From Verrucomicrobiota bacterium (GTDB taxonomy: Bacteria; Verrucomicrobiota; Verrucomicrobiia; Limisphaerales; UBA9464): a DNA stretch of 50,763 bases. Under the pieces are notes generated by a model. It ran no database searches. It worked only from the letters and a program-made list of their open reading frames with translations, and was not told where the DNA came from. How positions within the stretch are numbered: the first letter of the stretch is position 1; every line of letters begins with the position of its first letter. A program made the position numbers and the translations under genes. Below are positions 2,990-14,061 of this stretch, piece after piece. The stretch spans positions 1 through 50,763 of the forward strand of contig VHCX01000022.1 in NCBI GenBank assembly GCA_016871615.1, written 5' to 3'.

Positions 2990-4651
2990 TCAATCCACCC
3001 GAAGCCAGACGGTCTTCATGTAGGCCGGCTCCTCCCGGGACACCGGGAAATCCGGGGGCTGCGGGACATAGCGCTCGGCCTTCACGCGCCGACCGGCCGC
3101 CGCCAGGCCGGAGCGGACGTGCGCCAGGAAGGTCCCGGGCTCCAGCCTCGCTGCGTTGGTCGAGGCGAAGAGGACGCCCCCGGGCTTGAGCACCTCGGCG
3201 GCCAGTTGGGCCAGACGGCCATAGTCGCGCTCGGCCCGGAAATCGCCCCGCTCCTTCGACCGCGAGAAGGTCGGCGGATCCAGGAGCACCGCGTCGAAGC
3301 GTCGGGCGCGCCGGGCCCAGCGGCCGAGCCAGTCGAAGGTGTCGCCGAAGACGAAGTCGTGGGCGGCGGGATCGAGGGCATTCAGGGCGAAGTTGCGCCG
3401 GCCCCAGTCGAGGTACTTGCGGGATAGGTCGAGGCTGGTCACCCGCGCCCCGCCCAAGGCGGCGCAGACGCTGAAGGCGCAGGTGTAGGCGAAGGTGTTG
3501 AGCACCTCGGGCCCGGCGGTTCCAGGCCGCAGGAGCGGAAACCCGGCCCCGACATGCCCGGTGAGCAGGCGACGCCGGTTGTCCCGCTGGTCGAGGAAGA
3601 GCCCGACGCTGTAACCCTGGTCGAAGCGGATCTCGTACCTCACCCCGTTCTCCCGGACGGTGAACGACTCCGGCGCGGTGCGGCCCCGGATCCAGCGGGG
3701 CCCGTTCTCGTCGGGACCGGAACATCCCACCCGACGGTTGAGCGGCCGGTGGTACAGGTCCGGCACCTCGAGGCCGCCCACCCGGCCCGGTTCCCCGAGG
3801 CCATCCCGCCCCGAGTCGGGGTCGCTGTACAGCAGGTGGAAGCCCCCCCAGGCATCCAGGTGGAGCCCCTCGGCATCCGCGTCCGAAGCCCCGTGCAGTC
3901 GCCGGAACGCATCGGTCTCGCCGGGGACGATCACGGCCTGCCGCAGGCGGACCCTCGGATCGCCCCAGGCATCGGGCTCGGCCGTCCAGGCCACCCGGTC
4001 CCCGCTGCGCGGGTGCTCGAAGGCCAACCGGTGCGCGACGAGGTGCAACCGCCGGGCCGGGCCGCCACCGTAGAGACGGTCGCCCAGGATCGGCATGCCA
4101 CCCTCGGCGGCGTGGACGCGGATCTGATGGGTCCGGCCGGTCTTGGGCTGGGCTTCCCAGTCGATGCCCTCGCCCGACTCGGACACCTTCCGGAAAACCG
4201 TCTCGGCGGCCTCCATGCCGGCAGCGCGCGGCCGGGCCACCTGTCGATCCCCGGCACGGACCAGGGACCAGTCGGCGATCCACTCCGAGGCCGGGATCCG
4301 ACGATCGGTCCGCAGGCGGTACACCTTCTCGACGCGGCGCTCCTCGAACTGCCGGGTCAGCGACCGGTTGGCCAGGGGGGTCTTGCCGAAGACGATCAGG
4401 CCCGAGGTCTCCTTGTCGAGCCGGTGCAGGATGGACAGGTCCGCCCAGCGCGGTTCCCGATGCCGCAACCACTCGTGGAGTCCCTCCCCGGCGTACGGAT
4501 CCGGTGCGTGGGTGTTCCAGCCGGGAGGCTTGTCGACCACGAGCAGGTCCTCGTCCTCGAAGACCACGCACGGCGGGACCGCGGTCGTCCGGGGCCGGGG
4601 GGCGGCGGCGTCTCCCCGGAGGTTCCCGTCAGGCTCGGAACCTGGATCCAT
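2990..4651 (-). CDS. RluA-type pseudouridine synthase fused to an RlmI-like SAM methyltransferase
   Basis: A 553-residue two-enzyme protein. Residues ~28-230 are an RluA/RsuA-type pseudouridine synthase with the catalytic HRLDKETSG motif (Asp79), which isomerises uridine in RNA. Residues ~240-553 resemble the RlmI/RlmK type of class I SAM methyltransferase: an RNA-binding-like segment ending in FLDQRDNRR, SAM motif I around residues 385-400 (NTFAYTCAFSVCAALGG) and catalytic-loop motif LLDPPTFSRSK near 457. It probably modifies rRNA at two sites or in two ways; the target is unknown. I chose ATG 4651 because the frame upstream is low-complexity shadow of the preceding CPBP gene, whose stop is only 23 bases before it. 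The frame is continuous through the domain boundary, so this is a true fusion as written. A separate single-domain RlmI-like methyltransferase lies at 30560-31765. Confidence 0.9.
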   Translation of the reverse strand: MDPGSEPDGNLRGDAAAPRPRTTAVPPCVVFEDEDLLVVDKPPGWNTHAPDPYAGEGLHEWLRHREPRWADLSILHRLDKETSGLIVFGKTPLANRSLTRQFEERRVEKVYRLRTDRRIPASEWIADWSLVRAGDRQVARPRAAGMEAAETVFRKVSESGEGIDWEAQPKTGRTHQIRVHAAEGGMPILGDRLYGGGPARRLHLVAHRLAFEHPRSGDRVAWTAEPDAWGDPRVRLRQAVIVPGETDAFRRLHGASDADAEGLHLDAWGGFHLLYSDPDSGRDGLGEPGRVGGLEVPDLYHRPLNRRVGCSGPDENGPRWIRGRTAPESFTVRENGVRYEIRFDQGYSVGLFLDQRDNRRRLLTGHVGAGFPLLRPGTAGPEVLNTFAYTCAFSVCAALGGARVTSLDLSRKYLDWGRRNFALNALDPAAHDFVFGDTFDWLGRWARRARRFDAVLLDPPTFSRSKERGDFRAERDYGRLAQLAAEVLKPGGVLFASTNAARLEPGTFLAHVRSGLAAAGRRVKAERYVPQPPDFPVSREEPAYMKTVWLRVD

Positions 4652-4674
4652 GCGTCGAGGGATCTCGCCCGGCT

Positions 4675-5424
4675 TCAGGTGAATCGCCAGTTCCCGGTGG
4701 CGATGGCATACACGCTCAGGATCGCATTGGTCACGCCATGCGCGACCATCGCATCCCCGAGCCGGCGGCGGCGCAGCACCAGCCCCTGGTAGAGGGCCGC
4801 GCAAACAAGGGCCGGGAGCCACTGTCCCGGGTGGCTCAGGCCGAACAGCAGGCAGGTGACGGCGAAGGCCTTGGCCTGCCAGAGCCCCATCGACACCGAC
4901 TCGAAGTCCGGGCGGACGACCATGCGGTACAGGAACGACCGGTAGAAGACCTCCTCGATCATCGGCACGAGCACGGATCGACCGACCACACGAACCGCCA
5001 CGAAGGCCCACCCGAGGGCCGGAGCGTCCCGGAAGAAGACCAGCGGGTTCCACGGCGGTTCGACCGGTTCCGGCACGGGCCCCTTGCCGGTCCACAGGGT
5101 GGAGAACCGGTCATAAAGTGCCGACAGCGAGGGGATTTGCCCGTCGAGTGCCATCCACAGGGCGGCCACGGTGATGCCGACAGCCACCGCCGGCAGGCTG
5201 AAGGCCCAGCGCATCTCGGGAAGGCGACCGCGCAGCGTCCAGACCAGGACCGCGGCGACGAGGGTCTTGATGGCGTAGACCCAGTACTCGGAGCCGGCAA
5301 ACCCCTTGCCGGCAAGGCTGCCGATGAGCAGGAACACCGCGAACGGCAGGACCCGGGGGAACTCCGGGGTGTTCCAGAGGGGCTGGGAACCGGATGGCGA
5401 TCCAAGCGGCGGCGAGGCGGACAT
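4675..5424 (-). CDS. CPBP family intramembrane metalloprotease
   Basis: A 249-residue polytopic membrane protein of the CPBP/Abi (CAAX protease-like) family. The three conserved motifs are visible: EEVFYRSFLYR near residue 156 (EExxxR type), FGLSHPGQW near 196 and HGVTNAIL near 228. Several hydrophobic segments come before them (VLPFAVFLLIGSLAG, LVAAVLVWTL). Its length and N-terminal layout recall the subgroup found with exosortase systems, but there is no exosortase in this window, so that link is only a suggestion. ATG 5424 (MSASPPLG) is preferred over an open frame extending to 5616, whose extra 64 residues look non-coding. The fused pseudouridine synthase/methyltransferase follows after 23 bases and is probably cotranscribed. 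Confidence 0.87.
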   Translation of the reverse strand: MSASPPLGSPSGSQPLWNTPEFPRVLPFAVFLLIGSLAGKGFAGSEYWVYAIKTLVAAVLVWTLRGRLPEMRWAFSLPAVAVGITVAALWMALDGQIPSLSALYDRFSTLWTGKGPVPEPVEPPWNPLVFFRDAPALGWAFVAVRVVGRSVLVPMIEEVFYRSFLYRMVVRPDFESVSMGLWQAKAFAVTCLLFGLSHPGQWLPALVCAALYQGLVLRRRRLGDAMVAHGVTNAILSVYAIATGNWRFT

Positions 5425-5689
5425 CGCCTTGGATGATCCTCGGTGCCGGAAACCGGGCAAGCGCCAAGGCAACGGCCGTGAGTCCGCCCTGAAGTGGGCC
5501 ACGTGAGGCAACGGCGCTTGGAACCACCCGCACCCGGGCGATGTCCCGGAGTCATCCATTGGGCAGGCAGGCATCCACGTGGCGATACCGGCGCCCCCGA
5601 CCCACCCCCATGTCATGTCCCCTGCCGAGGGGGCGTCCCGGGGTTCCCGGTTGCGGCCGCCGGGTCGGATCGATCACCGTCTTGGGGGG

Positions 5690-6202
5690 ATGCCTTGCCG
5701 ATCCCGCCCCGTGAACATCGTCCTTGTCGAGCCCGAGATCCCGCCCAACACCGGCAACATCGCGCGGTTGTGTGCGGCAACCGGGGCGACCCTTCACCTC
5801 ATCGAACCGCTGGGCTTCGAGATCGACGACCGGCGGCTGGCCCGGGCGGGCATGGATTACTGGAAGCTGGTCCGCTGGCACCGGTGGCCGGACTGGACGG
5901 CCTACAGGAACCACATCCTACCCAAACCGTGCGAAAACGGGATCGGACCGGGCGGCGGCCGGCTGTGGTTCATCGAGCAGGGCGCCCCGCGCCGCTACAC
6001 GGAGGCGCGCTTCGAGGCCGGCGACCACCTGATCTTCGGCCGGGAGACCAGCGGGCTGCCGAGGGCGCTCCTCGAAGGGCATCCGGAGGGCTGGCTGGAT
6101 ATCCCCATGGCCAACCCCGAGGCCCGGTCCCTCAACCTCTCGAACTGCGTCGCGATCGTTCTGTTCGAGGCCCTGCGCCAAATCGGATCGGGCGGAAGGT
6201 AA
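5690..6202 (+). CDS. trmL: tRNA (cytidine(34)-2'-O)-methyltransferase TrmL
   Basis: SPOUT-class enzyme that 2'-O-methylates the wobble nucleotide of certain tRNA-Leu. The N-terminal signature NIVLVEPEIPPNTGNIARLC and the following HLIEPLGFEIDDRRLARAGMDYW match TrmL closely. The C-terminal knot carries the SAM-binding motifs LIFGRETSGLPRALLE, IPMANPEARSLNLS and NCVAIVLFEALRQ. The product is 170 residues from ATG 5690; a GTG at 5711 would give a start just before NIVLVEPE, as in E. coli TrmL, and is equally plausible. It is an isolated plus-strand gene between divergent CPBP and convergent thioredoxin-like genes. Confidence 0.95.
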   Translation: MPCRSRPVNIVLVEPEIPPNTGNIARLCAATGATLHLIEPLGFEIDDRRLARAGMDYWKLVRWHRWPDWTAYRNHILPKPCENGIGPGGGRLWFIEQGAPRRYTEARFEAGDHLIFGRETSGLPRALLEGHPEGWLDIPMANPEARSLNLSNCVAIVLFEALRQIGSGGR

Positions 6203-6282
6203 AGCCGGCGGGCATAATCCGGCTGGCAAACCCCGGCGGACAATGACCCAGGGCAGGCCGGGGCCTTGAGAGCCCGGGCTCC

Positions 6283-6762
6283 TTACCTGGCGGAACCGCG
6301 TTTGGTCCACCCTTCGATCTTGTCGACGAAGGCCGAGGGGCCGCCCTTGAGGTAGCCCACATGCCGGCCCAGTTCCTTGCCGTCACCGTCCACCAGCACG
6401 AAGGTGGGGTAGCCCTCGACGTTGTAGCGCTTCTGGAGATCCTCGTTCTGCTGCTTCACCGCGTCGGTCTGCTTCTTCTTGTTCGGGAAGTCCACCTCGA
6501 CGAGGACCAGCTTCTTGTCGGCGAACTCGAGGAAGGCCTTCTGGTCGAGGGAATCCTTCTTCATCTTGATGCACCAGCCGCACCAGTCGGACCCGGTGAA
6601 GTCGAGCAGGATGGCCTTGTTGTCCTTCTTGGCGGCGGTCTTGGCGGCGGCGAAATCGGTCTGCCAGCCGGGTCCGGCCAAGGCCGGCAGGGCGCTCGCG
6701 AGGAGGGCCAGGCACAGGACGCGTAACGGCGGGACGCCGGGGGAGAAACTGCGGGATCTCAT
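6283..6762 (-). CDS. Secreted thioredoxin-fold protein (WCGWC active site)
   Basis: A 159-residue protein with an N-terminal signal peptide (hydrophobic core VLCLALLASALPALAG) and a single thioredoxin-like domain. The redox motif is DWCGWCIKMKKD, typical of the periplasmic thioredoxin_7/DUF255-like group, and the cis-Pro region reads VEGYPTFVLVDGDG. It probably reduces or isomerises disulfides outside the cytoplasm. ATG 6762 is chosen over an upstream ATG at 6825 because it places the signal peptide at the N-terminus. It lies 143 bases downstream of the second metal permease gene on the same strand and could be read from that operon, but nothing shows this directly. Confidence 0.85.
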   Translation of the reverse strand: MRSRSFSPGVPPLRVLCLALLASALPALAGPGWQTDFAAAKTAAKKDNKAILLDFTGSDWCGWCIKMKKDSLDQKAFLEFADKKLVLVEVDFPNKKKQTDAVKQQNEDLQKRYNVEGYPTFVLVDGDGKELGRHVGYLKGGPSAFVDKIEGWTKRGSAR

Positions 6763-6905
6763 CGGAGGTGGTTCGTTGGGTCGAGGATTTCGATCGAACG
6801 TCGGAGGCTCCTGGCGGATTGTCAACGCCGGCCCGACCCTGGACCTTGGTCGAATCCTTCATCCGGACCCCCAGCTTGGACCTTCGTCGGCAACGGGCCG
6901 CGGGT

Positions 6906-7844
6906 TCAGGCAGCCCCCCGGGAGCGCCACCACCGCGGAACCCAACCCGCCGTTGGGCTGAAGAGCCAGGCCAGGGTGAACCATGCGCCCCCGGCCACGA
7001 CCGACGCCCCGGCCGGGGAGCAATCCAGCGCCACCGACAGGTGCATGCCGCCGATGGCGCTCAGCGCGGCATGCACGACGCCCAGCACCAGCCGGGGCAC
7101 CATCCGCTCGGTCAGGATTGCAGCCGTGGCCCCCGGCAGGATGAGCAGCGCGATGACCAGGATGGCCCCGACCGCCTCGAACGACGCCACCACCGCCAAG
7201 GCCAGCCACAGCATCAGGCCGTGGTGCACCGCGCTCACCGGAAGGCCCAGCGCGGCGGCCAGACCCGGATCGAAGGAGGTCAGCAGCAGCTCCTTGTAGA
7301 AGAGGGCCAACAACAGCACCGAGGCCACCAGCAGGCCCGCCAACCGGACCAAGGGCGGCGGCCCCAGCGACAGGGATCCCAAGTGCACGGGAGGCTCCAG
7401 GGGGATCATCGGCAATTCCCCGTTGAGCACGCAGTCCTGGTCGAGATCGACCCGGTCGGCAAACACCGCGACCAGCACCACGCCCAGGGCGAAGAGCGTC
7501 GAGAAGGCGATGCCGATCGCCGCATCGGGCCGGACGCGGGAGTAGCGCGTGATCCCCTCGACCAGCAGGTGCGTCGCAAAGGCCGCGACGAAGGCGCCGA
7601 GGACCATCGCGCCGATCCCGCGTGAACCGGTCAGCAGAAACGCCACGGCGATGCCCGGGAGCACGCTGTGGCTGATGGCGTCGCCCATCAGGGCCATGCG
7701 CCGCAGGATGAGGAAATTGCCCACCAGCCCGCAGGTGCACCCGACCAGGAAGGTGACCAGGGCCATCATGCCGTGGCTGTCGATCCCGGTGGTCCACGGA
7801 TCCACGAAGACACGCTGCACGCTGAAGTCCGGCACCAGCGTCAT
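6906..7844 (-). CDS. Metal ABC transporter permease (TroD/MntB/ZnuB type)
   Basis: A 312-residue integral membrane permease of the ABC-3 family for Mn2+, Zn2+ or Fe2+. Hydrophobic helices fill nearly the whole length, and family signatures include LILRRMALMGDAISHSVLPG near the N-terminus and SFDPGLAAALGLP plus VVASFEAVGAILVIALLILP in the second half. It is the last gene of the importer operon; its ATG overlaps the stop of the upstream permease by four bases (7841-7844), which indicates translational coupling. Unlike its partner it has no C-terminal extension. The metal cannot be assigned from sequence alone. Confidence 0.93.
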   Translation of the reverse strand: MTLVPDFSVQRVFVDPWTTGIDSHGMMALVTFLVGCTCGLVGNFLILRRMALMGDAISHSVLPGIAVAFLLTGSRGIGAMVLGAFVAAFATHLLVEGITRYSRVRPDAAIGIAFSTLFALGVVLVAVFADRVDLDQDCVLNGELPMIPLEPPVHLGSLSLGPPPLVRLAGLLVASVLLLALFYKELLLTSFDPGLAAALGLPVSAVHHGLMLWLALAVVASFEAVGAILVIALLILPGATAAILTERMVPRLVLGVVHAALSAIGGMHLSVALDCSPAGASVVAGGAWFTLAWLFSPTAGWVPRWWRSRGAA

Positions 7845-9370
7845 GGCCGCCCTCCGTAGCCGATCACCCCGCCCTGCGGCCGGTCGCCGGGGGCCCGGCC
7901 TCCCGGAGCCGGGGCCGGGACCGACGGGATCGGCCGTCCATGCGGGTCGACATCCGTCCGGGGCAACCGCCGCTCCAGTTCGCGCACGGTCGCCTCGCCC
8001 AGCACGTGCTCGATCTTCTCGGCGTCGTCATGGACGTGGTCCGGGGCGATGCAGGCATCCTGGGTGAGGTACAGCTCCCAAAGACGATGGTTGCGCACGA
8101 TCGCGCAGGCCCGCTGCCAACCGGACGGTGTCAGGGCGACGGTGTCGCCCGACAGCGTGGCGAACTCCCCACGGACCAGCGCACCGATCTCCCCCAGCGC
8201 GGCCTCGCGATCAATGCGACGCCGGGCGGCCAACGCCCCGACCGGGACGGTCTCCCCCGGGAAACCGCCGGATTCGAGGACCTGGTAGATCGCCTTCAGG
8301 GTGTTCTCCTGGGCCACCCGCAGACGCTGGGAACGCTGGCGGTTCCAACGCGGCCACACGCCATGTCGCGGCGAGAACACCAGCGCCGCCCCGAAGAACA
8401 GGCCTGCCGAGAGGACCATGAAGGGGCCTGTGGGCAGGCGGGTGCCCAGGAAGGACAAAAAGGCCCCGCTGAGGCCGGACACCGCACCGATGGCGGCACT
8501 CCACAGGAGCATCCGGTGGAACCGATCCGTCAGCAGCGAGGCGGTCGCCGCCGGGATGATGAGCATGGCCGACACGAGCACCACCCCGACCGCCTGCAGG
8601 GCGGCCACGACGGCGAAGGCCAGGAGCAACAGCAGCACCCGCTCCAGCCAGCGGGTCGGCAGCGCGAGCACCCGCGCGAAGCCCGGGTCGAAGCTCACCA
8701 GGAGGAACTCCTTGTAGCCGACGGCCAGCATGCCGACCACCAGCGCCGTCACGACGCCCATGAGTTGCAGGTCCCCCGGGCCGAGGGCGGCGGCCTGCCC
8801 GAAGAGGAAGCTCTCGATGCCGCTCTTGTTGCCGGTCGGCAACCGCTGGAACATCGACATGAGACAAAGGCCCGCGCCGAAGAAGGTCGCCAGCACCATG
8901 CCGAGGGCGGTGTCCTCCTTGAGTCGGGTCGTCCGGGTGATGAGCGAGACGACGGCCGATCCGGCGAACCCGGCGACCAGGGCCCCGACGAAGATGGCCA
9001 GCGGGTCCTTCTCGAGGTTCCACAGGAACCCCAGGGCCACCCCGGGCAACACCGCATGGGACAGGGCGTCGCCGAGCAGCGCCATCCGACGGACCACGAG
9101 GAAGCCGCCGAGCAGGCCACAGGACACCCCCAGCAGGACGGTGCCCAGGCAGGCATGGCGGACCGCCGGGTCGGACAACGAGGCGAAGCGCAGGGCCTGT
9201 TCGGTCCAGCGCACCTCGGTGAGGTCGCCGATCTTGGCGGCCTGGGCCAGAGCCGCCGACGCCAGCCAGAGCCATCCGGCCACGCCGCGGAGGATCCTGC
9301 GGGCGCCGCGGAAGGCGTCGACCCGGGTCGACGGTGGGCGGGGAATCCATTGGGTCGATGATCCGTCCAT
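7841..9370 (-). CDS. Metal ABC transporter permease with fused C-terminal MntR/DtxR-like domain
   Basis: A 509-residue fusion. Residues ~50-325 are an ABC-3 metal permease (GGFLVVRRMALLGDALSHAV, SFDPGFARVLALP, LQAVGVVLVSAMLIIPAA). Residues ~340-475 resemble an iron/manganese-dependent repressor: a winged-helix segment (VGALAARRRIDREAALGEIG, then VALTPSGWQRA) and a dimerisation/metal segment with HDDAEKIEHVL, keeping the E-x-x-E-H ligand pattern of MntR, then DPHGRPIPS, which matches the DtxR PxGxPIP turn. The last ~30 residues are Gly/Pro-rich. The domain should face the cytoplasm and could sense metal, bind DNA from the membrane, or gate transport; none of this is shown. The start ATG 9370 is nine bases after the ATPase gene stop. 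Length is about 200 residues above a plain permease. Confidence 0.92.
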   Translation of the reverse strand: MDGSSTQWIPRPPSTRVDAFRGARRILRGVAGWLWLASAALAQAAKIGDLTEVRWTEQALRFASLSDPAVRHACLGTVLLGVSCGLLGGFLVVRRMALLGDALSHAVLPGVALGFLWNLEKDPLAIFVGALVAGFAGSAVVSLITRTTRLKEDTALGMVLATFFGAGLCLMSMFQRLPTGNKSGIESFLFGQAAALGPGDLQLMGVVTALVVGMLAVGYKEFLLVSFDPGFARVLALPTRWLERVLLLLLAFAVVAALQAVGVVLVSAMLIIPAATASLLTDRFHRMLLWSAAIGAVSGLSGAFLSFLGTRLPTGPFMVLSAGLFFGAALVFSPRHGVWPRWNRQRSQRLRVAQENTLKAIYQVLESGGFPGETVPVGALAARRRIDREAALGEIGALVRGEFATLSGDTVALTPSGWQRACAIVRNHRLWELYLTQDACIAPDHVHDDAEKIEHVLGEATVRELERRLPRTDVDPHGRPIPSVPAPAPGGRAPGDRPQGGVIGYGGRP

Positions 9371-9379
9371 GGCACCCCT

Positions 9380-10177
9380 TCAACGCGCCTTGGCGCGCAC
9401 CGCCTCCGCCACCTCGCTCAGCAGGGTGAGCCGGCCGCCGTAGGTCTTCTGCAGCAGGTCGGGCGTGAACACCTCTGCGGTGGGACCGAAGGCCACCACG
9501 CGCAGGTTCAGCAGCAGGAGCCAGTCGAAGTAGTCGCGGGCGGTGGGCAGGTCATGGTGCACCACGAAGAGGGTCTTGCCCCGGTCACGGAGCCCCTGCA
9601 GCAGGGCGATGATCGAGGCCTCGGTGGCTGCATCCACGCCGGCGAACGGCTCGTCCATGAAATAGAGGTCGCTCTCCTGCGCCAGCGCCCTTGCCAGGAA
9701 GACCCGCTGCTGCTGCCCGCCCGAGAGGTTGGAGATCTGCCGGTCGGCGAAGGGCAGCATCTGCACCTGGTCGAGGCAGTCGCGCGCGATCCGACGATCC
9801 TCGGCCGAGGGGCGCCGGAACAGGCCGACGCGCCCGTAGCGGCCCATCAGGACGACGTCCATGACGCTCACCGGAAAATCCCAGTCCACCGACTCCCGCT
9901 GGGGCACGTACCCGATCCGACCCAAGGACTCGGACACCGGATGGCCGAAAGCCTTCACCCAGCCCGAGGCGCAGGGAAGCAGCCCCATGCAGGCCTTGAT
10001 GAGCGTGGACTTGCCCGCACCGTTGGGTCCCACGATGCCGATGAGCTTTCCTGCGGGTGCCTCGAGGTCGACGCCCCACAGCACGGGCTTGTCCCGGTAG
10101 GCGACCGTCAGGTCATGGATCTCCAGCGGGGGCGCGACAGGCCCGCCCGACGTGGACCCGGCCTCCGGACCGCTCAC
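9380..10177 (-). CDS. Metal ABC transporter ATP-binding protein (TroB/MntA/ZnuC type)
   Basis: A 265-residue ABC ATPase that powers the importer. Walker A is GPNGAGKST, the Q-loop region reads YVPQRESVDWDFP (typical of the Mn/Zn/Fe group), the signature is NLSGGQQQRVFLARAL and Walker B is LYFMDEPFAGVDA, followed by the switch His in FVVHHDLPT. The start is GTG at 10177, which overlaps the binding-protein stop as GTGA (10174-10177); no ATG fits better. Order binding protein, ATPase, permease, permease is the same as in troABCD-type operons. Confidence 0.95.
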   Translation of the reverse strand: MSGPEAGSTSGGPVAPPLEIHDLTVAYRDKPVLWGVDLEAPAGKLIGIVGPNGAGKSTLIKACMGLLPCASGWVKAFGHPVSESLGRIGYVPQRESVDWDFPVSVMDVVLMGRYGRVGLFRRPSAEDRRIARDCLDQVQMLPFADRQISNLSGGQQQRVFLARALAQESDLYFMDEPFAGVDAATEASIIALLQGLRDRGKTLFVVHHDLPTARDYFDWLLLLNLRVVAFGPTAEVFTPDLLQKTYGGRLTLLSEVAEAVRAKAR

Positions 10178-11145
10178 TTCAGGCCCTCCACGATGCGGTC
10201 GACATTGCGTCGGATCATGCCCTCGTAGGTCCCGAGGTCGAACGGCCCGTGCTTCTGCCCGGGCGTGCCGAGCGCATCGGAGAAGAGTTCCCCACCCCGC
10301 CGTACCCCGGCATCCTTGGCGATCCTCTGCAGGCCGGCCGGGGAGACGCTGCTCTCAAGAAACACGGCCGGGACCCCCTTGGAGCGGATGAAGTCGGTCA
10401 ACTGGGCCATGTCGGCCAGACCGGCCTCGGTCACGGTCGAGATCCCCTGGAGGGCGACGACCTGCATCCCGTAGGCCCGTCCAAAATAGCCGAAGGCGTC
10501 ATGGCTGGTCACCAGGATGCGGCGCGTCGGAGGGATCTCCTCCACCCGCCCGCGGACCCACCGGTCCAGGCCGTCCCACCGCCGCTTGAGCTCCGAGGCA
10601 CGGCTGCGGAACGCCTCCGCCGAGGCCGGGCGGACCCCGGCGAGGGCCTCGGCGACCGCGTCGGCGCAGTCGGCCCACAGGCGCACATCGAACCACACGT
10701 GGGGATCCTTCTGGCCCTCCCCGCCGGCGTTGATCAGGCGGTCGCGGGCCAACCCGTCGGTCACGGCCGCAACCCGGCGACCGGAACGGCGGAGCCTCTC
10801 GAAGGTCTCCTGCATGCGGCCCTCAAGGTGCAGGCCGCTGTAGAGGATGAGGTCCGCCCGTTGCAACCGCACGAGGTCCGACGCGGTGGCCCGGTAGAGG
10901 TGCGGATCGACGCCCGGCCCCATGAGGGCGTGGACGGCCACCTGTGGGCCGCCCACCTCCCGGGCGAGGTCGGCCACCATGCCCACCGTCGCGCAGACCG
11001 ACACGAGCGTCCCCGCCCCGTCCCCGCCCCGGGCGGCCAGCGTGGCGGCCATCAGGAACCCCAACAGGCGCAGAACGACGTCGACCGACACCAACAACCG
11101 GAGCCGCAACCACGCGGAAGCGGCGGAAAGGAAGCACCCAAGCAT
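10174..11145 (-). CDS. Metal ABC transporter substrate-binding protein (TroA/ZnuA family)
   Basis: A 323-residue extracytoplasmic metal-binding protein, first gene of the importer operon. The N-terminus has a hydrophobic export segment (residues ~15-38). Cluster A-I ligand positions are recognisable: His82 in GPGVDPHLY, a His in DPHVWFDV, a His in LVTSHDAFGYFGRAYG and an acidic residue in LFSDALG. There is no long His-rich loop of the kind seen in many ZnuA proteins, which leans slightly to manganese or iron, but the metal is uncertain. The stop overlaps the ATPase GTG. A palindrome and candidate promoter lie 9-63 bases upstream. Confidence 0.93.
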   Translation of the reverse strand: MLGCFLSAASAWLRLRLLVSVDVVLRLLGFLMAATLAARGGDGAGTLVSVCATVGMVADLAREVGGPQVAVHALMGPGVDPHLYRATASDLVRLQRADLILYSGLHLEGRMQETFERLRRSGRRVAAVTDGLARDRLINAGGEGQKDPHVWFDVRLWADCADAVAEALAGVRPASAEAFRSRASELKRRWDGLDRWVRGRVEEIPPTRRILVTSHDAFGYFGRAYGMQVVALQGISTVTEAGLADMAQLTDFIRSKGVPAVFLESSVSPAGLQRIAKDAGVRRGGELFSDALGTPGQKHGPFDLGTYEGMIRRNVDRIVEGLK

Positions 11146-11153
11146 GGATGCGC

Positions 11154-11182
11154 ATCATCGGACCCCGAAAGTGTTGAGTCAA
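11154..11182 (-). promoter_or_regulatory. Candidate sigma-70 promoter of the metal importer operon
   Basis: On the minus strand TTGACT (11182-11177) is followed after 17 bases by GATGAT (11159-11154), a 5/6 and 4/6 match to the -35 and -10 consensus. Transcription would begin very near the ATG at 11145, giving an almost leaderless mRNA, which is acceptable in a genome with few Shine-Dalgarno sites but lowers confidence. This is inference from pattern only. Confidence 0.4.
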
Positions 11183-11186
11183 ACAG

Positions 11187-11208
11187 GATGTTTTATCTCT
11201 AAAACATC
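11187..11208. promoter_or_regulatory. Perfect inverted repeat, candidate metalloregulator operator
   Basis: Arms GATGTTTTA (11187-11195) and TAAAACATC (11200-11208) are exact reverse complements separated by TCTC. The site is AT-rich in a GC-rich intergenic stretch and ends four bases upstream of the candidate -35 box of the metal importer. Size and symmetry fit a dimeric repressor of the MntR/DtxR, Fur or Zur type; the sequence is not an exact match to any consensus I know. The gene for guaA starts 147 bases away on the other strand and could also be affected. Confidence 0.6.
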
Positions 11209-11354
11209 GACCCCGGGCATCCCGAGGGCCAACCGGCTCCCCAGGCACCCTTTGGCGTTCCCGTCGCCGCCGTCGCCCCGCCCCCAAGGAGGACCGTCGC
11301 ACGCGGCTCCAAATCCGGCTTGATGGGCCGGCGGCCGACCCGCCACCGTTGCTC

Positions 11355-12893
11355 ATGGAGCAGATCGTCATCCTCGATTTCGGATCCCAATACACGCAGG
11401 TCATCGCGCGACGGGTCCGGGAACTGAACGTCTATTCGACCCTGCTGCGCTACGACACCCCGGCCGCGGAGATCCGGAAGCTCGGGGTCAAGGGAATCAT
11501 CCTTTCGGGCGGCCCCGCCTCGGTCTACTCGCCCAAGGCCCCCCTGCCCGACCCGGCGATCTTCCAGCTCGGGGTGCCCGTCCTGGGCATCTGCTACGGC
11601 GTGCAGCTGATGGGGCATTTCCTCGGGGGCAAGGTCGAGAAGGGCACCAAGCGCGAATACGGCAAGGGCACCCTCAAGGTCACCCGGAAGGCCTGCCCCC
11701 TGTTCCGCAGGCTCCCCGGCACCCTGCAGGTGTGGAACTCGCACGGCGACAAGCTCACCCGGCTGCCGGAGGGATTCGCCGCCGTGGCGACCACGGACAA
11801 CTCCGAATATGCCGCCATCGAGGATCCGGCCCGGTCCTTCTTCGGCATCCAGTTCCACCCGGAGGTGGTGCATTCACCCCGTGGGCGGGAGATCCTCGCC
11901 AACTTCGTTCGGGGCGTCTGCGGCTGCCGGCCGAGCTGGACCATGCGCAGCTACGTCGACCAGGCCTGCGAGGAGATCCGGTCCAGGGTTGGCAACGAGA
12001 AGGTCGTCCTCGGCCTGAGCGGCGGCGTGGACTCGAGCGTGGCGGCCGCACTCATCCACAAGGCCATCGGCGACCAGCTCACCTGCATCTTCGTGAACAA
12101 CGGGCTGCTGCGGCACCGCGAGGCGGAGGTCGTGCAGGAGGTTTTTGGCCGCCATTTCCATATCCGCCTGCAGTACGAGGACGCGACGGCGCTGTTCCTG
12201 CGCAAGCTCAAGGGGGTCACCGACCCGGAGCGGAAGCGCAAGATCATCGGCAAGACCTTCATCGACGTCTTCCAGGCGGCCACCCGCCGGGCAGGGAAGG
12301 CCAAATTCCTGGCCCAGGGGACCCTCTACCCGGACGTGATCGAGTCGGTGCCCATCGCGGGCAACCCCGCCCACATGATCAAGAGCCACCACAATGTGGG
12401 AGGCCTGCCCAAGGGCATGAAGTTCCAGTTGCTGGAGCCCCTGCGCAACCTCTTCAAGGACGAGGTCCGCCAGCTTGGGCTGGAACTGGGCCTGCCGAAG
12501 GAGATCGTGCACCGGCAACCCTTCCCCGGGCCGGGCCTGGCCGTGCGCTGCCTTGGGGACCTGACGCCGGAGAAGCTCGAGATCACCCGCAACGCCGACC
12601 GGATCGTCGTCGAGGAGATGAAGGCGGCCGACTGGTACTACAGGACCTGGCAGGCGTTCGCCGTGCTCTTGCCGGTCCGCAGCGTGGGCGTGCAGGGAGA
12701 CGAACGTACCTACGCCTACACCATCGCGCTGCGCATCGTGGAATCCCAGGACGGCATGACCGCCGACTGGGTGAAGGTGCCCTACGAGCTGCTTGAGCGC
12801 ATCAGCACCCGGATCACCAACGAGGTGCGCGGGGTCAACCGCGTGGTGCTGGATCTGACCAGCAAGCCGCCGGGGACCATCGAGTGGGAGTAG
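11355..12893 (+). CDS. guaA: GMP synthase (glutamine-hydrolysing)
   Basis: A 512-residue enzyme converting XMP to GMP with glutamine and ATP, the last step of guanine nucleotide synthesis. The N-terminal class I glutamine amidotransferase has the nucleophile in GICYGVQLM and the His-Glu pair in FHPEVVHSP. The ATP-pyrophosphatase domain carries the PP-loop LSGGVDSS near residue 220. The C-terminal dimerisation domain has [12 protein letters not shown] and ends [15 protein letters not shown], the usual GuaA terminus. ATG 11355 is preferred to a TTG six bases upstream. It is transcribed away from the metal importer. Confidence 0.98.
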
Positions 12894-12964
12894 GCGCCCG
12901 CAGGCTTTCAGGTCGGACGGGAAGGTCGGACGGGATCGGCAGCCCGGGCTGGTCCCGGCCGAGA

Positions 12965-13366
12965 TCACCCGGGGACGGCGCCGTCGGCATCGTAGCCGCA
13001 AGCGAGGGTGATCAGTTCGCCACAGGAGCACTGCACCTCGATGTGCGTGACCCGCTCCCCGTCGCGAACCACCCGGGTGATGGCCGCCGACGCCCGCGGA
13101 GGGGGCGGTGCTGCCGGCGCGTCATGGGAAGGCTGCGGAGGATGGTGGGCGTGGGGCTGGATCGGCGTGGGCTGCGCACCCAGAGCCGGGTACGGGGACG
13201 GTGCGGACCTGGCAGCCGGCGTCGCCTTCGAAGGAAGGGGCGATTCGCCGGTGACCCCGATCGGCTTGAAATCAGCCTTGAGATCGCGACCTGCCGCGGC
13301 CTTGCCGTGGGCGTGGGAACCGGCCGTCGACGATCCGGGAATCAGGGGTTGGAATGCGCTGGGCAT
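12965..13366 (-). CDS. Hypothetical 133-residue protein downstream of motB-like gene
   Basis: Not recognised. The first ~85 residues are low-complexity and rich in Pro, Ala and His (for example PTPIQPHAHHPPQP), then a short conserved-looking end reads AITRVVRDGERVTHIEVQCSCGELITLACGYD. The CSCG pair could bind metal, but only two or three Cys are present. ATG 13366 lies 11 bases after the motB-like stop, so the two are probably cotranscribed. Given the flagellar remnants next to it, a flagellar accessory role is a guess from context. The open frame continues upstream of 13366 as a shadow of the motB-like gene. Confidence 0.6.
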   Translation of the reverse strand: MPSAFQPLIPGSSTAGSHAHGKAAAGRDLKADFKPIGVTGESPLPSKATPAARSAPSPYPALGAQPTPIQPHAHHPPQPSHDAPAAPPPPRASAAITRVVRDGERVTHIEVQCSCGELITLACGYDADGAVPG

Positions 13367-13377
13367 GGGGGCGGAGC

Positions 13378-14061
13378 TCAGAACTTGTAGGTGCCTTCGT
13401 TGGCCCGGAGCACGAGGCTGACCCGGCGGTTGCGCGGGTCCTCCGGGGGGATGCCCTCCAGGGGCACCGTGTCCCCGTAGCCGCAGACCCGGCGGATCTG
13501 ACTGGATTTGACGGCATGTTCCATGAGGAGCTTCCGGGCGGTCTGGGCACGGGTCGAAGACAGGTCCCAACCGTCCAACTGGCCCGGCTTGGGCTGGTAG
13601 CCGGACTCGGTATGGCCCTCGATCTCGAGGGCGAAGTCGTTGGTGAACCGGGTGATCTGCCACGCCATCGTCGTGAACACCCACTTGCCGTACTCCGAAA
13701 GGTCGACCGCCCCCTTGTCGAAGAGCGGCCGCTGGTGACGATCAAAGAGGCTCGGGCGGATGCCATCGCTCAACAACTCCATCCTCAGGGTCGGATCCTG
13801 CTGGATCTCGGGATTGCTGTTGAGGGTCTTGAGCATGTCCTGGCTGATGCGCCGCAGGATGCCCAGCTCGATGGGGGCGCTGGCGTCGAAATCGTCCTTA
13901 TAGTGCGTCTTGTCGCTCTCCTTCTTCTCGTCGAAGGTGCCGGTGGATTTTTTCTCCGTCCCGGAAAACGGGTTGCGGAAGGTCCGCGACACGGCGTCCT
14001 TCACCTTCGAGTCCTGCGACACGAACCAAACCACCAGGAACAGCGCCATCATCGCGGTCAC
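13378..14061 (-). pseudogene. MotB-like flagellar stator protein lacking its native start
   Basis: Homologous sequence begins near 14106 (GGGGGRSWKVAYADFVTAMM), the classic MotB N-terminus with the proton-binding Asp in YADF, but an in-frame TAA lies at 14113-14115 and no ATG, GTG or TTG fits before it. The first usable start is GTG 14061, two codons after that Asp, so the product as written (227 residues) would lose the essential residue and half of the membrane helix (MALFLVVWFVS). The C-terminal OmpA-like peptidoglycan-binding domain is intact (EGHTESGYQPKPG, RRVSLVL). MotB normally anchors the stator to the cell wall with MotA, which is absent here. The 5' end is joined to the start of flhF, so this is probably a broken gene or an assembly join. 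Confidence 0.8.

Follow-up and report, generated by a model that had tools for sequence, protein, structure and literature searches.

A candidate metal sensor derived from a DtxR-type repressor at the C-terminus of a verrucomicrobial ABC-3 permease

Introduction

What does a domain of the DtxR/MntR repressor family do at the C-terminal end of a metal permease? This question is raised by a 50,763-nucleotide stretch from a Verrucomicrobiota bacterium (GenBank assembly GCA_016871615.1, contig VHCX01000022.1, positions 1 to 50,763; hereafter the window). There, one gene on the minus strand, at 7841..9370, encodes an ABC-3 permease and a DtxR/MntR-type domain in a single unbroken frame of 509 codons. 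A first-pass annotation of the sequence had correctly seen this frame, leaving its strand unstated, and had proposed that the domain is either a membrane-bound transcription factor or a metal sensor that gates transport. The comparisons presented here favor the second proposal. The C-terminal domain is probably a former DtxR-type repressor turned metal sensor, which would throttle the importer at high cytosolic metal; we infer the throttling itself.

The same architecture is found in Chlamydia trachomatis: YtgC-YtgR (YtgCR, CT069), encoded in a metal-import operon of the ABCD type, is an ABC-3 permease that ends in a DtxR-like domain. Cleavage is reported to release this C-terminal part, which then represses the ytg and trp genes (PMC5599777, PMC7755916), and no obvious Fur, DtxR or Irr homologue was found in Chlamydia by sequence (PMC5599777). 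Homologues occur in chlamydia-related bacteria as well, according to a review (PMC10972484). The first-pass remark that similar architectures occur in PVC (Planctomycetes, Verrucomicrobia and Chlamydiae) bacteria was therefore right. Its statement that the mechanism is not described fails for Chlamydia, because YtgC-YtgR has been studied experimentally. Searches of open-licence papers listed Chlamydia studies of the permease-repressor fusion; among the listed titles and openings of abstracts, none described such a fusion outside Chlamydia or a DtxR domain acting on a transporter.

Results

The fusion recurs across Verrucomicrobiota

The fused gene and its parts have the following positions in the window.

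7841..9370, minus strand: fused permease gene (TroC-like permease plus DtxR-derived domain), 509 codons
8378..9166, minus strand: ABC-3 permease domain, residues 69-331 (Pfam PF00950, E 1.7e-67)
8132..8326, minus strand: winged-helix half, residues 349-413, modelled with the fold intact but without a PF01325 match at E<=0.1
8171..8209, minus strand: recognition-helix equivalent, residues 388-400; a helix in the model, unconserved among fused proteins
7925..8131, minus strand: metal-binding/dimerisation half, residues 414-482 (PF02742 Fe_dep_repr_C, E 7.4e-20)

The permease-DtxR fusion is real. The frame contains no internal stop codon, and PF00950 and PF02742 were found where an ABC-3 permease and a metal-ligand segment had been described. 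Both motifs quoted at that time, HDDAEKIEHV and DPHGRPIPS, were recovered as given. The domain search suggested for the C-terminus was positive for PF02742 and negative, in Pfam at E<=0.1, for PF01325, the DNA-binding half of the family. A sequence search of the PDB with the C-terminal 173 residues matched Mn and Fe repressors (best E 1.1e-12). A stop codon or an assembly error between the two halves had been a concern; it is very unlikely because the fused frame recurs in related genomes, and a frame or assembly artefact was rejected in view of the recurrence across the phylum.

This recurrence was followed in several samples. Using a PF02742 search of 96 genomes, with fusions counted by frame and by reading of most loci, a fused permease was found in 38 genomes, three of them cut by contig ends (G013, G021, G087) and four carrying a more divergent subtype (G038, G052, G068, G077). 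The fused frame was present in all 19 genomes of the same genus, the window's own included, G013 showing only the C-terminal piece at its contig end. A scan of named genomes gave 67 loci, titled Verrucomicrobia or close kin, which yielded 66 distinct fused proteins. A sample of 387 genomes from across the phylum, in which no Chlamydia genome was recognisable, included at least 22 with frames of 430 or more residues above the family cut-off. The fusion was observed in 20 of the 20 loci fetched from this sample (hereafter the deeper loci). The survey of troC homologues that the first-pass annotation had suggested thus shows the same fusion recurring across Verrucomicrobiota. Among viral contigs, 19 pattern matches were obtained, but no relative was confirmed; none of the 1,424 plasmid records with a match covered 80% of the query.

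On a plasmid of Halomonas sp. PA16-9 (NZ_CP040452.1; L260 4893-5999), a gammaproteobacterial metal permease with a C-terminal, winged-helix-like tail was noted. By visual inspection of the frame and of the tblastn match, this tail ends ahead of the metal-binding helices.

Predicted structure of the fused protein

An AlphaFold2 single-chain model was computed with an alignment of 51 fused relatives as input. Its mean predicted local distance difference test score (pLDDT) was 84.7. The model matched the PsaBC manganese permease (Z 33.9, 31% identity over 271 residues), and residues 349-487 matched DtxR (1bi2; Z 18.8, 135 residues, root mean square deviation 1.6), in a list of structures from which the absence of a family carries no meaning. 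The listed PsaBC chains, of 258-290 residues, match the permease part only and show no C-terminal addition. The helices and the wing of a winged helix are visible in the model, residues 388-400 corresponding to the recognition helix. A winged-helix fold is therefore predicted although the PF01325 sequence profile was not found. The last membrane helix spans residues 314-332, and a long helix, 338-367, begins five residues later in the model; N356 sits on this helix, which precedes the metal-binding half.

Conservation of the two halves of the fused domain

In order to compare fused and separate proteins, three non-redundant sets from the same phylum were used: 102 fused domains (F), 50 DtxR-like proteins of about 230 residues (D) and 49 MntR-like proteins of about 150 residues (M). 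Left out were L007 and L100 (partial or short) and one of the two L181 hits (3/280), as well as exact duplicates. L166, a truncated fused fragment, was counted as M-type in these sets, in the ligand tally and in the tree, and is absent from the matched-pair and profile tests. For Pfam, the fused set consisted of the window protein and 50 of the 66 fused proteins, and the separate set of 44 of 99 non-redundant proteins, hand-picked across clades before the scan. PF02742 was present in all 51 fused and all 44 separate proteins. In contrast, PF01325 was found in none of the 51 fused proteins (E<=0.01) and in 44/44 separate ones.

Among pairs with a metal-half identity of 0.75-0.85, identity of the recognition helix was 0.24 in F (1,640 pairs), as compared to 0.69 in the 102 D pairs and 0.89 in the 53 M pairs. 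As these pairs overlap, the comparison was repeated with disjoint pairs of matched mean metal-half identity (0.80 F, 0.80 D, 0.78 M). Recognition-helix identity was then 0.27 in F (42 pairs), 0.66 in D (19) and 0.86 in M (12). The difference between F and D plus M was highly significant (p 1.7e-12); the variable used for matching did not itself differ significantly (p 0.14). The recognition helix was less conserved than the metal half in 42/42 fused pairs versus 16/31 separate pairs. Within the window's genus, it was 0.47 identical in the fused proteins (16) versus 0.95 in MntR (14). Helix 1, which bears a metal-ligand position, was kept (0.63 F, 0.60 D, 0.84 M in the matched pairs). Taken together, helix 2, helix 3 and the wing carried on average a net charge of +0.07 in fused domains; the corresponding values for the two types of separate repressor were +2.26 and +2.22. 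Finally, a helix-turn-helix (HTH) profile was trained on half of the separate proteins. Held-out separate proteins scored 67.2-102.6 bits, and the 102 fused domains at most 22.0 bits. Judged from these alignments, the recognition helix of the fused domains is released from constraint, and DNA binding by the fused domain is not supported.

The metal-binding half gave a different picture. By alignment to DtxR, the metal ligands of the fused domains are nearly invariant. We take positions 10, 79, 83, 98, 102, 105 and 106 of DtxR to have metal-ligand roles. H79, E83 and E105 were each found in all 102 fused domains, H106 in 101 and H98 in 94, with D in the other 8. Position 102 was E in 93 and D in 9; position 10 was N in 85, D in 9, H in 6, E in 1 and Q in 1. 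The equivalents in the window protein are N356 (position 10), H428, E432, H447, E451, E454 and H455. With a metal-half profile in the same test, held-out separate proteins scored 58.7-86.4 bits versus 23.3-55.2 bits for the fused domains.

The palindrome upstream of the operon and the separate MntR

The fused permease is the third gene of a compact troABCD-like operon, in the order binding protein, ATPase, fused permease, second permease. The fused gene and the second permease gene share an ATGA overlap. PF00950 thus occurs in an operon with an ATPase and a cluster A-I binding protein, as expected of an ABC-3 metal permease. The other features of the operon are as follows.

10174..11145, minus strand: periplasmic metal-binding protein (ZnuA/TroA family; PF01297, E 2.1e-76)
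9380..10177, minus strand: ABC ATPase of the importer (PF00005, E 3.1e-27)
6906..7844, minus strand: TroD-like ABC-3 permease, the second of the pair, with no DtxR-type extension (PF00950, E 1.5e-49)
11187..11208, no strand: perfect palindrome upstream of the operon, probable MntR operator
11182-11154, minus strand: promoter-like site adjoining the palindrome, by consensus match only

The palindrome, GATGTTTTA-TCTC-TAAAACATC, is perfect over 22 bp, with 9-bp arms and a 4-bp spacer. At up to 3 mismatches, it is the sole such site in the window (0 in 100 shuffles) and the sole place in the 3.8-Mb genome. The fused domain is not the only DtxR-type regulator of this genome: a separate MntR is encoded on a different contig (L002 1279..1728, G000:C74). 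This protein scored 132.7 and 116.9 bits against the NCBIfam MntR models, with cut-offs of 138 and 153. Mn is likely to be the imported or sensed metal because the genome's regulator is MntR-like; Zn or Fe may also be considered because the operon's binding protein is nearest to the Zn-type AztC model (197 bits, cut-off 350).

The pattern TGTTTTA-N4-TAAAACA, with one mismatch allowed, was found in 26 of 50 genomes, namely 15/19 of the same genus and 11 others. Among 28 fusion-free genomes of the same family (G019, G022-G037, G039-G049), nine have the site. In each of these nine, it is situated upstream of the separate mntR, 266-300 bp away from the part encoding the repressor domain. The reversed control pattern was found in 1/28. 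Because the site is found just upstream of mntR in nine relatives that have no fusion, the palindrome is probably the operator of the separate MntR.

In five fusion-free loci (L234, L235, L236, L239, L240), a frame of about 430-500 residues diverges from mntR, with the operator between the two. This frame looks porin-like by eye and perhaps encodes a metal-regulated outer-membrane porin.

Separate repressors are the rule beside the fusion. One was found in 36 of the 38 fusion genomes of the 96-genome search, the window's own included; for G015 the count relies on a fragment at a contig end, detected with PF01325, and for G068 on a short frame. In a second set, reached through 38 of the 67 named loci and sharing some species with the first, 36/38 fusion genomes likewise had one. 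In many loci of other clades, a divergent separate repressor gene neighbors the tro operon. Palindromes upstream of troA were sought in the 57 of 86 fused loci whose sequence covers this gene. No palindrome with arms of at least 7 bp was found in 21 of the 57, in three of them because the sequence extends less than 40 bases upstream. The palindromes of other clades differ from that of the window (ACTTTGATTAATCAAAGT, TTAGCCTAGGCTAA, ATTGTTTAAACAAT), and the regulator may thus have changed from clade to clade. The ACTTTGATTAATCAAAGT type was noted upstream of troA in L071, L072, L085 and L092, and the TTAGCCTAGGCTAA type in L084, L088, L089 and L093.

These observations bear on three alternatives. 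The first-pass annotation had considered that the uncleaved, membrane-bound protein binds 11187-11208 as a transcription factor. The winged-helix fold of the model and the location of a palindrome upstream of the operon would fit this proposal. It was nevertheless rejected as the main explanation and looks highly improbable, since PF01325 is absent, the recognition helix is unconserved, the charge of the region is near neutral, and the operator tracks the separate MntR, being beside mntR where the fusion is absent. Cleavage, as for YtgR, would be another route: a protease would free the C-terminal domain, which would dimerise with metal and repress its own operon. The chlamydial protein shares the architecture and the gene order, and its fragment was seen and represses, as described in PMC5599777 and PMC7755916; the retained metal ligands and predicted fold are also compatible with it. 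We regard this route as unlikely, given the unconserved recognition helix, the absence of PF01325 and the existence of a separate MntR that shares the operator. Finally, the membrane-bound domain could act as an anti-repressor, pairing with the separate repressor and retaining it at the membrane so as to couple the state of the transporter to transcription. The co-occurrence with a separate family member and the conserved dimerisation half would agree with this. However, the partner varies by clade (short MntR or long DtxR type) whereas the fused domain is constant, and the MntR of the window's genome has no counterpart of the DPHG stretch of the fused domain, so that pairing appears quite unlikely.

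Beyond the operator, a divergent frame (11349-12893, plus strand) looks GMP synthase-like (guaA) by eye; its TTG start is about 140 bp from the operator. An Rfam scan of 4000-14000 gave no match at the gathering score.

Doubly fused permeases and a Feo-tethered sister form

In 8 of the 20 deeper loci (L181, L183, L186, L187, L190, L191, L192, L193), each of the two neighboring permeases has a DtxR-like domain at its C-terminus. All eight loci also hold a separate repressor, and PF01325 was found in none of 10 proteins from doubly fused loci. In the second copy of L187, the winged-helix stretch is 48 residues long as compared to 60-63 in separate proteins. A domain on both channel halves is how an intra-transporter dimer would be expected to look. 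This arrangement also bears on a further alternative, in which the domain would bind incoming metal and pass it on or buffer it, without gating. Such a metal buffer or hand-over site would account for the conservation of both metal sites and the loss of DNA reading. By argument only, it would not obviously need the dimerisation half, the winged-helix fold or placement on both permeases, and we consider it rather unlikely.

A sister form was also observed, consisting of a membrane anchor, a DtxR domain and one or two FeoA domains per protein. In five loci read, it stands directly before a gene recognised as feoB by a GNPN motif, which we take to be diagnostic.

L104 7976-9007: anchored DtxR plus FeoA protein before feoB
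L106 6869-8068: anchored DtxR plus FeoA protein before feoB
L107 6356-7462: anchored DtxR plus FeoA protein before feoB
L108 7379-8491: anchored DtxR plus FeoA protein before feoB
L110 1872-2966: anchored DtxR plus FeoA protein before feoB

The recognition helix of the sister form is poorly conserved, its helix 2, helix 3 and wing together average a net charge of -1.67, and PF01325 was detected in 1 of 10 proteins, below the cut-off. After the membrane segment, the sister form has a linker similar to the one in the fused permease. In a quick tree of 143 columns, with 58/157 inner branches open and some long branches, the sister form clusters with the fused domains, apart from the D and M proteins, with a Shimodaira-Hasegawa-like approximate likelihood ratio (SH-aLRT) support of 94 (mark 95); the group includes one truncated fused row filed as M. 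Tentatively, the DtxR domain may have left DNA, perhaps once in this group, to become a reusable membrane-tethered metal sensor with direct feedback on two unrelated importers, ABC-3 permeases (one or both of the pair) and, via FeoA domains, FeoB. Porphyromonas gingivalis PgMntR has a DtxR domain and two FeoA domains in the same order. Unlike the sister form, which is membrane-anchored and has a poorly conserved recognition helix, PgMntR binds DNA, and the available part of its description mentions no transmembrane segment (PMC4805248).

Discussion

Of the two readings first offered for the locus, a transport-gating metal sensor is the better one, the gating step being the conjectural part of it. 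At high cytosolic Mn(II), or possibly Fe or Zn, metal would fill a site formed by N356, E451, E454 and H455; H428, E432 and H447 would form a second site. In DtxR, activation by metal involves a movement of the N-terminal segment. A similar motion, transmitted through the linker helix 338-367 that carries N356, could act on the permease. The permease would be slowed or stopped, giving a fast protein-level feedback (trans-inhibition), and slow transcriptional control would stay with the separate MntR, added to the fast feedback.

Several observations weigh against this proposal. The winged-helix fold is predicted with high confidence in the model (block means of 89-98 across residues 341-480). 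A remnant of the HTH is recognisable because the profile score is above 10 bits in 26 of the 102 fused domains, among them the window protein at 11.1. Chlamydial YtgR, of the same architecture, binds DNA according to the literature. The operator site is missing in 19 of the 28 fusion-free genomes of the family. No separate repressor was seen in G006 (67% complete), G012 (77% complete) and G120, nor in G116, whose second hit is another fused permease. Finally, a DtxR-like dimer within one transporter is not obvious here because, in the window, only one of the two permeases bears the domain.

Comparison with known systems delimits the proposal. The fused domain shares with the DtxR, MntR and TroR repressors the metal-binding half, the ligands and the overall fold. 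It differs from them in having no PF01325 match, in being tied to the membrane and in its unconserved recognition helix. With respect to YtgC-YtgR, whose YtgR is reported to be cleaved and to act as a repressor, the Verrucomicrobiota proteins compared have a decayed recognition helix and the window's genome has a separate MntR. By our own reading of PMC5599777, the fused domain is the only DtxR-type regulator in Chlamydia, which is not so here. Trans-inhibition through cytosolic domains is described for MetNI and ModABC (PMC10710835). The available part of this review deals with methionine and molybdate importers, and the word DtxR is absent from it. The fused permease is likened to these importers as possibly working in the same way, through a cytosolic domain that senses the imported substrate, and not as a member of their group. 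In MetNI and ModBC, the domain is on the ATPase and has other folds; here, it is on the permease and of DtxR origin.

The architecture itself was already known from Chlamydia. What appears new here is a DtxR domain that has probably come off DNA, beside a separate MntR. By analogy with Chlamydia, a permease carrying PF02742 would be labelled a permease-repressor, which is probably wrong in Verrucomicrobiota. For Chlamydia, too, one may ask whether YtgR, as long as it is uncleaved, affects the transporter to which it belongs. If the gating proposal is true, it would provide a route to protein-level feedback for transition-metal ABC importers, with a transcription factor recycled as an allosteric domain. 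If the reusable sensor module is also borne out, non-transcriptional regulators of transporters would belong to the very family after which a class of transcription factors is named.

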